NCBI RefSeq assembly: GCF_004137765.1
Contig: NZ_NOIS01000001.1
Span: 62,001-126,000, forward strand
Length of the DNA: 64,000 bases
Direction: 5' to 3'
Source: Rothia uropygialis
GTDB lineage: Bacteria; Actinomycetota; Actinomycetes; Actinomycetales; Micrococcaceae
Shown: one piece after another, positions 33,665-39,186 of the stretch
Position numbering within the stretch: position 1 is the first letter of the stretch
Layout of the letters: the number at the start of each line of letters is the position of its first letter
Made by a program: the position numbers and the translations under genes
Notes under the pieces: generated by a model
What the model saw: only the letters and a program-made list of their open reading frames with translations
Database searches by the model: none
Told to the model about the DNA's origin: nothing

Positions 33665-34165
33665 GTGGGGCTGAAGGATTTCGTCCAGGGGAGGCGTGAC
33701 TCCGCCGATATGGGGCAGGGCGTATGGCGCCGGGCCCATGATCGTTTTCGGCGCGGTCTCGACCGGTTCCACCAGATTCTGGAGAGGGTCGATGACGAGG
33801 CCTCTCTCGATGCTCTGATTCCGGCGGCCAATAGGCTGGCCGACCTCTTGCCCGAGGTGCGAGGAATAGCAACCGGTGCGCAGCGGGTCGCCCCCAGCGA
33901 TTCAACGGATGTTCCGGCCTCGCGGGAAGGGCATTACGCCGATCTGCACCGGGCCCTGTCCAAGGCGGGCAATTCGCTGGCATTGTGCGCCGAGGCCTTG
34001 GCCATGATGCGGTGCGACGGAGCATGCGCGGGCGGATGTTCCAAGGTTGAGTCGGTCGAGCGGCGAGTAGTCACGGTCGAAGAGCAGGTTGCGGAGGCCG
34101 CTCGGCTCCTCCGCCTCGTCGAGGGTTCCGGTGAATCCGCCGATGGTGGCGTTTCGGCCGCTTAG
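33665..34165 (+). CDS. Hypothetical helical protein with a C-terminal-half Cys cluster
   Basis: 166 residues, GTG start preceded by AGAGGAGGGACC, an excellent ribosome site. Mostly amphipathic helices (for example WRRAHDRFRRGLDRFHQILE) with no signal peptide or membrane span. Four cysteines: Cys108, then Cys117, Cys121 and Cys125 in RCDGACAGGC, spaced by threes, which could bind a metal. A final heptad-like helix VVTVEEQVAEAARLLRLVE suggests a coiled coil. I do not recognise a family. It has its own promoter and is isolated from neighbours. Confidence 0.75.
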   Translation: MGLKDFVQGRRDSADMGQGVWRRAHDRFRRGLDRFHQILERVDDEASLDALIPAANRLADLLPEVRGIATGAQRVAPSDSTDVPASREGHYADLHRALSKAGNSLALCAEALAMMRCDGACAGGCSKVESVERRVVTVEEQVAEAARLLRLVEGSGESADGGVSAA

Positions 34166-34343
34166 CGGGCTTTGCCTGTGGCGTTCCGTCGATCGCTCTA
34201 CGGCCTCGCCGGGTCTCTGCTCGGGCCCGGATCGTGTACGCCCTGAACGGCACGAAGAGCCGTTCCTCGGTCGGTGAAGGTGTTAGCGATCGGTGAGGCA
34301 GCGGCAGTTTTTGGCGCCGGGTGGCCTGGCGCGGATGGGTGCC

Positions 34344-34799
34344 TCAGTCCTGCGCCCGTACGTGGTTGACGACTTTCATCATCGACGAGTGGAGGGCCTG
34401 TAATTCTTCTTTGTCCATGCCGAGTCGTTGCATCATGATGCCCGGGATCTTCTCGGCCTCTTTCCTCAATTCCTTGCCGGTCCGGGTTAGCGCTATGTCG
34501 AGGGACCGGTTGTCCTGGGAATTCCTGTCTCGAGTGAGGTAGCCCTGCGTCTCGAGGCGTTTGAGGAGTGGGGAGAGTGTTCCCGAGTCGATGCTCAGGC
34601 GTTCGCCCAGTTCCTTGACCGAAATGGGGGAGCGCTGCCACAGGGCGAGCATGACCAGGTATTGCGGATGTGTCAGCTTGAGCGGCTCCAGGACGGGCCG
34701 ATACGCCGCGATCACACTGCGGGAAGCCAAGGAAATCGCAAAGCAGACCTGGCTTTCCAGGGCGAGGGGATCTTCCGTGGGGAAGTCCGGTTTGTTCAT
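34344..34799 (-). CDS. MarR-family regulator, OhrR-like
   Basis: 151 residues. Winged-helix MarR protein whose N-terminus matches OhrR, the peroxide sensor repressing organic hydroperoxide resistance: LESQVCFAISLASR places a cysteine at residue 19 in the position of the reactive OhrR cysteine, followed by LTHPQYLVMLALW. The recognition helix is in VKELGERLSIDSGTLSPLLKRLE. An OhrR-box-like palindrome (34888-34902) lies upstream. Divergent on the other strand is a 61-residue protein, where one would expect ohr. No ohr gene is in the window. Confidence 0.85.
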   Translation of the reverse strand: MNKPDFPTEDPLALESQVCFAISLASRSVIAAYRPVLEPLKLTHPQYLVMLALWQRSPISVKELGERLSIDSGTLSPLLKRLETQGYLTRDRNSQDNRSLDIALTRTGKELRKEAEKIPGIMMQRLGMDKEELQALHSSMMKVVNHVRAQD

Positions 34800-34887
34800 T
34801 CGTGTCGCTCCCTACCCGTGAGGAGATTCGTGTGCTGTCGCGGCCGCAATAGATTCTAAACCGGATTGCCTGACCTCGTAGTTTGCG

Positions 34888-34902
34888 TACAATGAGTTTG
34901 TA
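34888..34902. promoter_or_regulatory. OhrR-type operator
   Basis: TACAATGAGTTTGTA, an inverted repeat with 5 of 6 paired positions, close to the TACAATT/AATTGTA element bound by OhrR. It lies between the divergent OhrR-like and 61-residue genes, 24 bases before the latter's start, so it could control both. Confidence 0.65.
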
Positions 34903-34925
34903 CACAAACTAATGGAGGGACAGTC

Positions 34926-35111
34926 ATGAGCAAGCCCCAAAAAGGCGATCAGTTCTCCTGGGGATTCCGACTCCAGAATCGAGCCGTCAGCACCCTCCTG
35001 CTGTTTATCGGACCTGCCCAGGGTAGTTCGGAAAGTGACCCCCGGCAGCGTCTCAAGCGCGAGTACAACCGCCGCAAGGCCCTCCATGAGCAACGGAAAT
35101 CGGAAAGCTAA
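34926..35111 (+). CDS. 61-residue protein of unknown function, probably OhrR-controlled
   Basis: Small basic protein beginning MSKPQKGDQFSWGFRLQNRA, followed by a short hydrophobic stretch VSTLLLFIGPAQG and a charged tail DPRQRLKREYNRRKALHEQR. GGAGGGA precedes the ATG. The middle segment is too short and polar for a sure membrane span but could associate with membranes. Its divergent placement from an OhrR-like regulator across a shared operator suggests induction by organic peroxide or a similar stress. I recognise no domain. Confidence 0.75.
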   Translation: MSKPQKGDQFSWGFRLQNRAVSTLLLFIGPAQGSSESDPRQRLKREYNRRKALHEQRKSES

Positions 35112-35199
35112 CTCCCTCCTGCCGGAGGAGCCCTTCGGATCGTTCAAAGGACCCGTTTTAGCACTGAAACGGGTCCTTTCGGCAACTCGGAGGAGGAGG

Positions 35200-35835
35200 T
35201 CAGATCAATTTGCTTTCGCGAGCTTTCGATATCGCGGCCGTCCGATTTTCGACGCCGAGCTTCCCATAGATGTGCACGAGGTGCGTCTTGACGGTCGCCT
35301 CGGAAATGAACAGTTTCTTGGACAGCTCACGGTTGCTCAACCCGGTGGCCAAGAGACGCAGTATCTCGGTCTCCCGTTCCGACAGGTTCTGCTCAGGGCG
35401 TTGCATGCTGGCCATGAGAGCCGCACTGACCTCCGGGGCCAAAGTGCTCTTGCCCGCCGCGGTATCCACGACGGCCCGTCGAAGGGCTTCGGCAGGTGCG
35501 TCCTTCAGGAGATACCCGAGGGCACCGGCTCGCACCGCGGCGACGATGTCGGCCTGCGTATCGTACGTGGTCAGGATCAACACCGGTGGACCCTGCATCT
35601 CCTTGAATCGGGCGGTAGCGGTGATTCCGTCCATCTCGGGCATCTGTATGTCCATGACCACGAGGTCAATGGCCTGGTCGGTTCCGGTCTTCGACTCAGC
35701 GACCTCGAGTGCTGACCGGCCGTTGCCGGCTTCGGCCACGACGACGACTTCGTCAAAACCGTCTAGGAGAGCGCGCAATCCAGCTCGCACTACGGGGTGA
35801 TCGTCGACCAATAGAACCCTGATCTTGGAGCTCAT
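35200..35835 (-). CDS. Response regulator, NarL/LuxR type (ChrA/HrrA-like)
   Basis: 211 residues: receiver domain with VLLVDDHPVVRAGL, phospho-acceptor Asp in LVVMDIQMPEMDG and Lys in GYLLKDAP, then a LuxR-type HTH (LSERETEILRLLATGLSNRELSKKLFISEATVKTHLVHI). The line ILTTYDTQADIVAAVRAGALGYLLKDAP closely follows ChrA/HrrA of corynebacteria, which answer haem. Its ATG overlaps the sensor kinase stop (35832-35835), so the two are coupled. The hrtBA pair next door is the expected target. Confidence 0.92.
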   Translation of the reverse strand: MSSKIRVLLVDDHPVVRAGLRALLDGFDEVVVVAEAGNGRSALEVAESKTGTDQAIDLVVMDIQMPEMDGITATARFKEMQGPPVLILTTYDTQADIVAAVRAGALGYLLKDAPAEALRRAVVDTAAGKSTLAPEVSAALMASMQRPEQNLSERETEILRLLATGLSNRELSKKLFISEATVKTHLVHIYGKLGVENRTAAISKARESKLI

Positions 35836-37193
35836 GCTCCCCCTTCGTTGTCGCTTGCGGTGTGCGCAGAGGTCAGTGGGATACGAACCCCGACAGCGGT
35901 GCCTTCGCCGGGAGAGGAGTCGATCGAAAGACTGCCTCCCAAAGTCTCGAGACGACGTCGCAATCCTATGAGCCCGTAGCCGCCTTCTGACGAATCGTTC
36001 AGACCGGCGGCGGGGTTGAAGCCGTCTCCGTCGTCGAAGATATCCAAAGTGACTTCGGCTTCCCAAACAGCAAGAGTCACCACAGCGAGGTCCGCGTTCG
36101 CATGTTTCGCGACGTTGGCGAGGCTTCCTTGGGCGGCGCGCAAGAGCGCGGAGGTGACGGGTTGGGGAAGGTCGGCTGCATCCTTGCCTTCGACGCGGAG
36201 TTCGCAACGCAAGGACCGGCCCGACGCCGCAGCCTGGCTCTGCGTCCTTTCGCACGTCACGCGCAGTGCGGGAAGGAGCGATTGACTCAACTCGGGGGAG
36301 GACAAGTCCTTGACGAACCGCCTGGCCTCGTCCAAATTCTCTGACGCAGTTTCCTGGATGGTCCCGACCCAGGAGCCAGCCTCGTCCAGACGTCCCGCCG
36401 CAAGGCTTCCGGCGGTCGCACGGGACATGAGAACTATGGACGACAGTCCCTGGGCCACAGTGTCGTGGATTTCGCGTGCTAGCCGCTCGCGCTCTTCCAT
36501 GCGGCCGGCTTGATGTTCTTTCTCGGCGAGCTCGGCTTGTGCGATGCGCAGGGCCTCGGCGACGCGCAGATGGTGGAGCGCTTCGTCGTGCAATGACCGG
36601 TACGCCGTGGAAATGATGATCGCCAGGCCTGCGCCCAGCATGGGGCCCAGAAGCGATCCCGGGGTGAAGCTGTCCAATTGGTCGGCGCGGGCCAGTTCCC
36701 ACAGTGGCACGAATGAAGCCATTGCCCAGAGCACCCCGACCGCAATGACCCCCTGCCACAGTTTGAGCAGGTGTAGGAAAAGGAACATCAGGGGGAAGAC
36801 GACCCACACGAAGTTCGCCGAGATGATGAGCAGCGCGATCCAGACTATGGTGACGGCCCCGAGCCACCACCCGGCAAAACGGCGCGGGTTCGCCGCGGTC
36901 GTGACGTGGCCCGACCGCAACGCTCGGGCATACCTGTTCTCCCACACGGTTCCGGTGAGATAGATAGCGCCCAGAAGCACGACGGCACAGATCGCGCAGA
37001 TCGCGGGCACCGTACTCGGAGTATCGGAGCTTCCGCCGAGGTAACGGATCAACCCGAAGACCAAGAGGAAAGCGAACATGACGTGCAAAGCGATGCGCAA
37101 TGTCTGCAGGACCCGGCTCGGGGCCGGCTGGGGCGCAAGGGTGTTCGGGGAGCTCACACATCTCACACTAGCGGGGAAGGGTTGACCGGACAT
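35832..37193 (-). CDS. Sensor histidine kinase (ChrS/HrrS-like, HisKA_3)
   Basis: About 453 residues with five or six membrane segments in the first 200 residues, then a dimerisation domain with phospho-His in EERERLAREIHDTVAQGLSSIVLM and an ATPase domain ending GYGLIGLRRRLETLGGSLSIDSSPGEGTAV. The topology fits intramembrane sensing of haem or envelope stress. The start is uncertain: an ATG at 37193 has no good ribosome site, and downstream GTGs are possible. Coupled to the regulator; hrtBA diverges upstream from 37295. Confidence 0.9.
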   Translation of the reverse strand: MSGQPFPASVRCVSSPNTLAPQPAPSRVLQTLRIALHVMFAFLLVFGLIRYLGGSSDTPSTVPAICAICAVVLLGAIYLTGTVWENRYARALRSGHVTTAANPRRFAGWWLGAVTIVWIALLIISANFVWVVFPLMFLFLHLLKLWQGVIAVGVLWAMASFVPLWELARADQLDSFTPGSLLGPMLGAGLAIIISTAYRSLHDEALHHLRVAEALRIAQAELAEKEHQAGRMEERERLAREIHDTVAQGLSSIVLMSRATAGSLAAGRLDEAGSWVGTIQETASENLDEARRFVKDLSSPELSQSLLPALRVTCERTQSQAAASGRSLRCELRVEGKDAADLPQPVTSALLRAAQGSLANVAKHANADLAVVTLAVWEAEVTLDIFDDGDGFNPAAGLNDSSEGGYGLIGLRRRLETLGGSLSIDSSPGEGTAVGVRIPLTSAHTASDNEGGA

Positions 37194-37294
37194 CAACCGA
37201 ATGGATGATACGAGGTTCAGCAATCCTTCCGATGTGCGCGTGAGGCCTGCGCGGAAGAGTGGATACCAACGAAATCCACTCGAAAGGAACCAAG

Positions 37295-38431
37295 ATGTTC
37301 GTCGGTATCAGAGACGTCTTCTACGCCAAGGGGAGGTTCGCCCTGATCGGTTCGGTCGTCGGGCTGATCACGCTCCTGCTGGTCATGCTCACCGGACTGA
37401 CCGGCGGCCTTGCTTCACAGAACACATCGGGGCTCACCGCCATCAATCCGGACAGATTCGCTTTCGGGGCCCCGGCCACAAGCGTCTCCGGCTCGGATTC
37501 AGAACATGAGGCCAAGGTCGACTACTCGGCTTCCCAGATCACGCAGAACCAGGCCCAGAAGTGGAAGGAGACCGACGACGTCGACTCCGCAGTTCCGGTC
37601 GGCTTCGCCCAAACGCAGCTCGCGGCCGAGGGCAGTGCCGGAGTTGCTGTCGTCGGTGTCCCGGACGATTCCAACACCGTCGGTGACGCGGTCGGGAAGG
37701 CCATCGACGGTTCGACCGAGCCGGGCGCCGGCGGCGTGGTGGTGTCCCAGTCGATCGCGGACGACCAAGGAGCGAGCGTCGGTCGCGAGGTCAACATCTC
37801 GGGCCAGAAGTTCAAGGTCAGTGGCGTCGTCCCGGACGAGTATTACAGCCACAGTCCCATCGCTTGGGTGGATACCGCCGGATGGCAGTCCGTCGCCCAC
37901 GTCCCCTCAGAGGGTGAGGACGCCGTGGTTGGCACCGCAGTCGCTCTCAAAGGCGACCTGAACAAGGACGCCTGGAACGACGCCGCCGACAAGACCGGGA
38001 CCGTGGTGTCCAAGGTCAAGGACTCCTTCTCGGGGCTTCCCGCCTACTCCTCGGAGCACAGTTCACTGCTGACCATGCAAGCCTTCCTCTACGGGATCTC
38101 GGCACTCGTGACAGTTTCCTTCCTGACCGTATGGACGATCCAGCGGACTCGTGACATCGCGATTCTCCGCGCTCTCGGTGCCGGTGGCCGCTACCTGATC
38201 AAGGACGCCGTCGGTCAGGCGGGCATCGTTCTTGCAGTCGGAGCGGTCCTCGGGCTCGGGCTCGGTGCGGGCCTCGGCTGGTTGGCGCAGAACGGTGTGC
38301 CCTTCCAGCTGAGCGCGGGCACAACCCTGTTGCCCGCCGCCGGGATCTGGGTGCTCGGGATGCTCGGCTCCCTCGTCGCAGTACGCAAGGTCGCAAAAAT
38401 CGATCCGCTCATCGCCCTAGGAGGCAACTAA
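37295..38431 (+). CDS. hrtB: FtsX-like ABC permease, probable haem exporter HrtB
   Basis: 378 residues: one N-terminal membrane span (VVGLITLLLVMLTGLTGGL), a ~220-residue extracellular MacB-like domain, then three spans including QAFLYGISALVTVSFLTVWTIQRTRDIAILRALGAG and the EF-type coupling helix. The opening MFVGIRDVFYAKGRFALIG closely follows corynebacterial HrtB. AAAGGA at 37283-37288 fixes the start at 37295. Together with the ATPase behind it and the ChrSA-like system in front, this points to haem efflux, although other FtsX-type substrates are possible. Confidence 0.85.
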   Translation: MFVGIRDVFYAKGRFALIGSVVGLITLLLVMLTGLTGGLASQNTSGLTAINPDRFAFGAPATSVSGSDSEHEAKVDYSASQITQNQAQKWKETDDVDSAVPVGFAQTQLAAEGSAGVAVVGVPDDSNTVGDAVGKAIDGSTEPGAGGVVVSQSIADDQGASVGREVNISGQKFKVSGVVPDEYYSHSPIAWVDTAGWQSVAHVPSEGEDAVVGTAVALKGDLNKDAWNDAADKTGTVVSKVKDSFSGLPAYSSEHSSLLTMQAFLYGISALVTVSFLTVWTIQRTRDIAILRALGAGGRYLIKDAVGQAGIVLAVGAVLGLGLGAGLGWLAQNGVPFQLSAGTTLLPAAGIWVLGMLGSLVAVRKVAKIDPLIALGGN

Positions 38432-38490
38432 ACATGATGGCTCACGTCGCAGAACATGTAGCAGGAACCCAGCATCGCGAGAAGGAATCA

Positions 38491-39186
38491 ATGCCAGCCC
38501 TTGAAATCCTCGAAACCACCCTGGAATATCCGGATGGCACCACCGCGGACGGCAAGCCGCGGACAGTAACCGCCCTCGACGCCGTCACCTTCCGGGCAGA
38601 GCGCGGGACGATGACCGCGCTCGTCGGGGAGTCGGGGTCCGGCAAGTCCTCACTGCTGGCGGTTGCCGGGGCCCTCGTCGAGCCCACGAGCGGTTCGGTC
38701 AAGGTCAACGGTATTGAGGCAGTTGGGCAGCCGGAGAAAACGAGGGCAGGGTTGCGCCGCGAGCAGATCGGCGTCGTGTTTCAGCAGCCCAACCTCATTC
38801 CGTCGCTCACGGCACGGGAGCAGCTTCTCGTGGGAGAACACATTCGCGGACTGCGCGGCGCAAAGTTCAAGGAACGCGGCCGCGCGGCCGACGAATTGTT
38901 GGCGAGGGTCGGCCTGGACGGTGCCGGGGACCGCCGTCCGCATCAGCTCTCGGGAGGACAGCGGCAACGGGTCAATATTGCTCGTGCGCTGATGGGCAAT
39001 CCGGCTCTCCTCCTGGCGGATGAGCCGACCTCGGCCCTGGACCACGAGCGTTCCCTCGAGATCGTCGAGCTGCTCCGCGAAGTCACCCGGGAATTCAACG
39101 TAGCGACCGTGATGGTCACCCACGAGACCGACCTGTTGGACAAGGTCGACTCGGTGGTCACGATGCGTGACGGGAAGCTTTCCTAA
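38491..39186 (+). CDS. hrtA: ABC ATPase, probable haem exporter HrtA
   Basis: 231 residues: Walker A GESGSGKSS, Q-loop VVFQQPNLIPSLTAREQLL, signature LSGGQRQRVNIARAL, Walker [13 protein letters not shown] and H-loop VTHETD. It belongs to the MacB/LolD branch paired with FtsX-like permeases. GAAGGA sits six bases before the ATG at 38491. An ATG at 38434 with AGGAGG upstream is a real alternative, adding 19 residues that look non-conserved. It follows hrtB by 59 bases and ends at a strong terminator. Confidence 0.88.
   Translation: MPALEILETTLEYPDGTTADGKPRTVTALDAVTFRAERGTMTALVGESGSGKSSLLAVAGALVEPTSGSVKVNGIEAVGQPEKTRAGLRREQIGVVFQQPNLIPSLTAREQLLVGEHIRGLRGAKFKERGRAADELLARVGLDGAGDRRPHQLSGGQRQRVNIARALMGNPALLLADEPTSALDHERSLEIVELLREVTREFNVATVMVTHETDLLDKVDSVVTMRDGKLS

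Follow-up and report, generated by a model that had tools for sequence, protein, structure and literature searches.

A His-type clade of OhrR-like regulators in actinomycetes and its neighbouring microproteins, candidate effectors of a membrane stress response

The classical OhrR regulator represses ohr, the gene for a 140-residue peroxidase. Its one-Cys MarR sensing scaffold is also that of SarZ and MgrA, which differ from the regulator described here in being global regulators; these two proteins were the next best named PDB relatives of our regulator after the OhrR entries. The locus under study lies in a stretch of 64,000 nucleotides of Rothia uropygialis DNA, which is termed the window in the following. 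Like the classical OhrR-ohr pair, as represented by the structure 1z91 and by the Streptomyces avermitilis OhrR-ohrB2 pair (PMC6034001), it combines a regulator of the MarR fold, a reactive Cys at the equivalent position and a shared tyrosine (Tyr33, Tyr29 in 1z91) with an operator that overlies a promoter between divergent genes. Unlike the classical system, the regulator contains His44 in place of Tyr40 and Ser23 in place of Tyr19 of 1z91, the neighbouring gene codes for a microprotein with no ohr in the locus, and the putative operator is of the type TTNGTNNACNAA, compared to ACAATTNAATTGT in the S. avermitilis system (PMC6034001). Among the titles and abstract openings listed for OhrR, MarR and DUF5313, none points to a pair composed of an OhrR and a microprotein.

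The gene for the OhrR-like MarR-family repressor (34344-34799, minus strand) encodes 151 residues, including Cys19 and the signature LTHPQY that characterizes the His-type OhrR clade (see below). The 61-residue microprotein is encoded divergently (34926-35111, plus strand, ATG start), with the operator region between the two genes; both open reading frames are thus located where the earlier note had placed an OhrR-like gene with Cys19 and a small basic protein diverging from it. The small gene is preceded by a promoter-like site, TTGCCT-16-TACAAT (34866-34893, plus strand; one occurrence, compared to a mean of 0.1 in shuffled sequences), and by a ribosome-binding site, GGAGG (34914-34918, plus strand). 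Two putative operator boxes are located in this region. Box 2, TTTGTACACAAA (34897-34908), matches the clade motif TTNGTNNACNAA exactly, whereas box 1, TTTGCGTACAA (34882-34892), is imperfect; it lies 15 bp from box 2 and overlaps the -10 element of the small gene. Upstream of the small-gene start codon, box 1 begins at 44 bp and box 2 ends at 18 bp; the two are found at 83-109 bp from the start of the OhrR-like gene. The TACAAT-type palindrome previously proposed as the operator (34888-34902) is a genuine dyad, TACAA-TGAGT-TTGTA, or GTACAA-N5-TTGTAC in its longer form (34887-34903), but comparison among loci indicates that the conserved unit consists of box TTTGTACACAAA and the imperfect second box TTTGCGTACAA, the dyad being formed by their inner halves. 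Downstream, a perfect 13-bp hairpin with an 8-nt loop, AAAGGACCCGTTT (35146-35179), separates the small gene from a luxR-type gene that converges on it and is likely a terminator; it was not returned by a terminator scan that demands a T-run after the stem. When positions 34000-35400 were searched for RNA elements, nothing in Rfam reached the gathering threshold.

The regulator belongs to the MarR family (Pfam E 1.5e-16), and its nearest solved structures are the OhrR entries 1z91 (E 1.2e-31), which we take to be B. subtilis OhrR, and 2pfb/2pex. Of the features expected of an OhrR, it possesses the MarR winged-helix domain and the N-terminal reactive Cys. In the alignment with 1z91, Cys19 corresponds to chain position 15 (Ser in the 1z91 sequence), Tyr33 to Tyr29, His44 to Tyr40 and Ser23 to Tyr19. 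Tyr29 and Tyr40 are presumably the two pocket tyrosines near the Cys in B. subtilis OhrR; the first of these is retained in the window regulator and the second is replaced by His44. The protein matches NF052638 over nearly its full length with 160 bits, short of the NCBIfam equivalog cut-off of 200 bits. Cys19, Tyr33 and His44 are invariant in all 14 aligned OhrRs that adjoin the small gene, each of which also carries LTHPQY.

In a tree of 109 rows (106 different), one branch with a support of 100/97 separates 84 His-type from 25 Tyr-type sequences. The regulator falls in the His-type clade, a distinct branch of OhrR that occurs widely in actinomycetes and has THPQY where classical OhrRs have TYPQY; four of the 84 His-type rows read VTHPQY or ITHPQY. 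The His-type set was chosen partly by patterns that include LTHPQYLV, such that its size does not reflect frequency; absence of ohr was not a selection criterion, and ohr is present in none of the 84 His-type loci, compared to 23 of the 25 Tyr-type loci. Likewise, none of the best 80 named His-type loci, drawn from at least 587 relatives, contains ohr. The earlier note suggested induction by peroxide or NaOCl; the sensor pocket, however, differs from that of classical OhrR (His for Tyr), and the signal could be of another kind.

The small protein was originally thought to stand in the place of ohr. This is true of the locus itself, but a classical divergent ohr-ohrR pair is encoded elsewhere in the same genome (G000:C4, about 70289-71253; L238:1290-2254), with an OhrR that carries TYPQY and is 40-44% identical to the window protein. 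The OhrR-like/microprotein locus therefore constitutes an additional system, and we rejected the notion that it replaces ohr.

The distribution of the operator was assessed upstream of 140 related OhrR genes, a set in which a few loci were entered twice (e.g., L146/L065). The motif TTNGTNNACNAA occurs within 233 bp upstream in 67 of them and is lacking in the other 73, compared to means of 0.2 in shuffled regions and 2.4 (maximum 7) in segments taken from elsewhere in these loci. An unbiased count of palindromes in the same regions yielded TTAGTGCACTAA in 17 and TTGGTGCACCAA in 6 of the 140, and perfect 12-bp palindromes were found in 35, whereas shuffled regions gave 11.9 on average and 17 at most. 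Two or three boxes spaced by 14-15 bp are also present in L006, L015, L017, L018, L195 and L136. Throughout the 2.96-Mb genome, 23 places match TTNGTNNACNAA, compared to 10 for a control pattern, and the GTRYAC core is contained in two of the 23: the window site and another that falls within a long ORF whose composition is coding-like.

The two clades differ in operator type. None of 25 Tyr-type upstream regions contains TTNGTNNACNAA, as opposed to the 67 of 140 His-type regions. The reverse is true for the ACAA-N5-TTGT type (counted with a purine also accepted as first base and a pyrimidine as last), which appears in 8 of the 140 and 20 of the 25; this is the core of the footprinted Streptomyces OhrR box (PMC6034001). 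The classical operator ACAATTNAATTGT, searched with up to two mismatches, was not found upstream of the window gene; the counts are 4 of 140 for the His-type and 16 of 25 for the Tyr-type regions. An ACAA-N5-TTGT element does, however, lie between the two boxes of the window. The looser core TNGTRYACNA was counted in 74 of the 140 His-type and also in 13 of the 25 Tyr-type regions (the L250s loci); to judge from these counts, the classical and His-type operators may therefore share an inner GTRYAC-like element while differing elsewhere.

The spread of the window-type small gene was followed with a profile (A2) composed of eight small proteins. Within the genus it matches 9 of 35 genomes, eight of them clearly and the ninth (G201) at E 0.007 with two internal stops; a close OhrR is present in the same eight genomes. 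The profile is matched in 63 of 395 genomes of the Micrococcaceae sample, representing 10 of 32 genera. Of 72 distinct copies, 71 originate from Micrococcaceae; the exception, L133, belongs to a different family within the order. Fifty-three copies have an OhrR-like gene at a distance of no more than 700 bp, and the gene order varies: 31 on the same strand with OhrR upstream, one on the same strand with OhrR downstream, 13 convergent and 8 divergent. The remaining 19 have no OhrR in the DNA examined (1.5-6.9 kb on the shorter side), and the small gene is present in genomes, such as G044, G046, G070, G048 and G092, without an OhrR match at E 1e-36, a search in which at most nine candidates were scored per genome. 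A phylum-wide profile search with the mixed alignment A6 detected the family in 1 of 296 genomes, which says little about its breadth; breadth outside the order consequently rests on OhrR-anchored loci.

Presence of the operator goes with pairing: in 40 of the 53 paired copies TTNGTNNACNAA is found in the 200 bp that precede the small gene, whereas none of the 19 unpaired ones has it there. Fisher's test gives p 2.9e-9 without correction for relatedness; like the other counts given here, these come from related species, which inflates them, and are not independent. Where convergent and same-strand loci possess TTNGTNNACNAA, the box precedes the small gene, and in several of them it takes the form of a 20-bp palindrome such as TTAGTTGGTGCACCAACTAA. 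Within one genus (g17), locus L044 of G017 contains both the OhrR and the box, and locus L046 of G046, whose neighbours match, contains neither. The strict box is absent in 13 of the 53 paired copies, several of which show near-variants by eye, e.g., TTAGTGCGCTAA and TTTGTGCGCAAA. On the basis of these comparisons, regulation of the small gene by the OhrR-like protein appears well supported. The functional link proposed in the earlier note thereby gains strong comparative support, and the pairing is far wider than was suggested there. Conservation of the small gene away from OhrR had been named as evidence against such a link; 19 of the 72 copies are conserved in this manner, yet all 19 lack the operator, which weakens co-dependence of the two genes and not regulation where they are paired.

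Inspection of unpaired loci did not reveal any further gene, beyond OhrR, that regularly adjoins the small gene. Three unpaired copies of the window type (L059, L060, L105) adjoin a two-gene pair, read from translations, which we take to be an OmpR-type response regulator and a histidine kinase. A link to menaquinone or cytochromes, raised by neighbours in some loci, was dropped, as it was inconsistent across loci.

The small protein scores above cut-off with no family in Pfam or NCBIfam and matches nothing in PADLOC; its best PHROGs match (E 0.025) is to a family of unknown function, and assignment to a phage or defence family on the basis of the latter two collections was discarded as unconvincing. 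No solved relative was found (best E 0.97). The predicted structure consists of helices at residues 12-27 and 39-60 (mean pLDDT 72.7, pTM 0.31), separated by a GPA turn at residues 29-31; the second helix is rich in Arg and Lys, and the protein has a net charge of +7. The hydrophobic stretch followed by an Arg/Lys tail, as read initially, accordingly holds for the window protein. A model of the Micromonospora protein (pTM 0.35) exhibits the same general form, in which the GPA loop joins a short helix to a long charged one. For a transmembrane span the hydrophobic segment is short (best 19-residue KD mean 0.76), and docking at the membrane is for this reason a guess. The window protein displays the features by which we delimit the GPA family: 60-80 residues, a hydrophobic or amphipathic helix, a GP[AP] turn, a variable tail and proximity to a His-type OhrR. 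Absence of purifying selection had also been considered an argument against a functional link; the small gene is under purifying selection, with dN 0.007 and dS 0.28 relative to its nearest relative. In other comparisons among the five closer congeners dN/dS is about 0.05-0.31, with dS mostly near saturation, and in comparisons with the two most divergent congeners it is 0.24-0.64.

The hydrophobic helix and the Gly-Pro-Ala/Pro turn recur across partner types, whereas the tails may be basic, acidic or similar to a zinc ribbon. Taken from one example each, the net charge of the tail is +4 in the window type, +6 in the Micromonospora type, and -3 in both the Arthrobacter and the Microbacteriaceae types. 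The window-type gene is missing from 20 Micrococcaceae OhrR loci; 14 of these contain a small protein with a different tail and a similar helix and FGPA turn, and in the other six a GPA partner was not found. Eleven of these 14 small genes are divergent from OhrR, and several loci contain two in tandem. In a sample of 297 genomes from the order, 31 are matched by the profile of this FGPA type; in 30 loci of the type, an OhrR-like gene lies within 3 kb in 12 of 13 inside the family and in 7 of 17 outside it.

A scan of named actinomycete genomes revealed at least 587 relatives of the regulator, and partners within 900 bp were surveyed in the best 80 loci. A GPA microprotein is present in 43 of these and DUF5313 (PF17240) in 17; two other small, apparently membrane-type proteins are found in 6 and 5 (11 together). 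In the remaining 9 the profiles detected no partner, although the motif reveals a GPA protein in two of them, L152 and L221. The partner profiles were built partly from the same loci, and the counts thus represent recurrence and not an independent test. Like the GPA proteins, DUF5313, which adjoins the His-type OhrR in Pseudonocardiaceae and some others, is a small protein with long hydrophobic stretches; unlike them, it is about 130-180 residues long as called, and sequence similarity between the two is not established. The Kribbella-type proteins (L165, L207) are close in form to the window protein.

The relationship among partner types was examined by profile-profile scores, each compared to the best of 12 column shuffles. 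The excess is largest between types A and B (130.9 vs 4.0), followed by A and M, the Micromonospora type (24.0 vs 9.2), and by the window type with A (20.9 vs 6.3), M (17.3 vs 4.5) and B (15.8 vs 6.5). The zinc-ribbon-like Z type shows a modest excess with the window type, A and B (10.3-15.0 vs 4.5-7.9), and the B-M (6.0 vs 6.3) and M-Z (0.3 vs 5.9) comparisons show none. Probabilities from hhalign are low except for A-B; for the window type and A they are 12.6%, and 42.5% over 16 columns in another comparison. Judged by profile similarity, common descent can be considered certain only for A and B.

Two tandem small genes divergent from OhrR, the second of which encodes a TDSxGHHYAVRK-type tail, are found in L067, L068, L069, L074, L076, L078, L079 and L080 and in L115-L119, L121, L122 and L126. 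A CPxC...CP zinc-ribbon-like tail follows the GPA/GPP/GGA turn in L153, L155, L164, L166, L168, L191, L199 and L211; partners with such tails are mostly from Microbacteriaceae. In L064, L065 and L066 (G040, G064, G087), the OhrRs are 67-68% identical to that of the window and the GPA gene was not found. These three loci share as a neighbour an HTH protein of 318-339 residues, and two of them a small membrane protein, which in our view resembles cytochrome oxidase subunit 4.

We propose that thiol oxidation of the OhrR-like protein probably derepresses a small membrane-associated stress protein, the candidate effector of the system. In the resting cell the regulator, seen as a one-Cys thiol-switch repressor of the His-type clade, would occupy two TTNGTNNACNAA-type boxes over the small-gene promoter and keep the gene off. 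Oxidation or thiolation of Cys19 would release the repressor, and the 61-residue protein would be produced from its own promoter. The microprotein may then dock on the inner face of the membrane via its short hydrophobic or amphipathic helix, which ends in the Gly-Pro-Ala turn, and the charged helical tail, left in the cytoplasm, would bind a membrane partner or lipid headgroups. It would thus serve as a fast, cheap stress effector and not as a peroxidase. Its action is placed at the membrane because the hydrophobic helix and turn recur among tails that differ in kind and charge, and because long hydrophobic stretches can be read in the sequences of the clade's other partners. Between the two possibilities raised in the earlier note, binding to membranes or to nucleic acid, the recurring helix and turn together with the variable tails favour the former over a general role in nucleic-acid binding.

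A possible, though doubtful, alternative is that the small protein serves as an adaptor or minor subunit in a respiratory enzyme or membrane transporter that is made under thiol stress. An amphipathic helix with a charged tail resembles known small subunits, the other partners of the clade look membrane-type, and one unpaired copy is preceded in the same frame by a transporter-like stretch, presumably related to a short-chain fatty acid transporter; the lack of a consistent neighbour besides OhrR in the unpaired loci examined argues against this reading. It is unlikely that the basic tail marks an RNA- or DNA-associated stress factor that binds nucleic acid. The charge of +7, the Arg/Lys-rich helix 39-60 of the window type and the similar basic helix of the Micromonospora type are consistent with such a role, but it leaves the hydrophobic helix without a function, and the Arthrobacter- and Microbacteriaceae-type tails are of net charge -3, the latter being zinc-ribbon-like. 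Equally, we consider it quite improbable that the small protein is a feedback partner, i.e., an anti-repressor or co-repressor that tunes its own expression by binding OhrR, despite its small size, its charged helix, a linkage to OhrR that stays tight across several gene orders and, in divergent loci, an operator located between the genes. The clade is kept with DUF5313 or another apparently membrane-type neighbour in 28 of the best 80 named loci, which would not be explained by a dedicated OhrR ligand; moreover, the small gene is present in genomes, such as those named above, that lack an OhrR match at E 1e-36, and in our view it therefore has a target other than OhrR. That the 61-codon frame is a chance ORF beside an ordinary OhrR, as its length and the lack of database matches might imply, is hardly credible and was rejected, given the family's presence in 10 of 32 genera, the selection acting on it, and its own promoter-like site, ribosome-binding site and operator.

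More tentatively than the derepression of a membrane-associated protein at this locus, we suggest that the entire actinomycete clade may have left peroxidase control: with a changed pocket and an operator of its own, it would govern a shared class of membrane microproteins, in which individual lineages swap the tail, or replace the entire protein by DUF5313 or by other small proteins of apparently membrane type, and retain the regulator. If this is true, the clade would represent an undescribed, thiol-triggered response to membrane stress, with a signal other than the classical organic peroxide. The textbook peroxide switch is tied to a single enzyme, and the altered pocket, new operator and microprotein neighbour suggest that it has been rewired. 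The operator, the THPQY signature and the GPA motif provide a testable handle on a small-protein family that is unannotated in many genomes, and the same handle extends to the role of DUF5313.

Other genes surround the pair in the window. A 166-residue ORF on the plus strand (33665-34165) contains the cysteine cluster CDGACAGGC, and its best Pfam match, Hemerythrin (E 0.046), is below cut-off. Beyond the hairpin, the genes at 35200-37223 (minus strand), convergent to the small gene, code, according to their translations, for what we take to be a LuxR-type response regulator and a histidine kinase; they are divergent from what is presumably an ABC exporter-like pair (37259-39186, plus strand).
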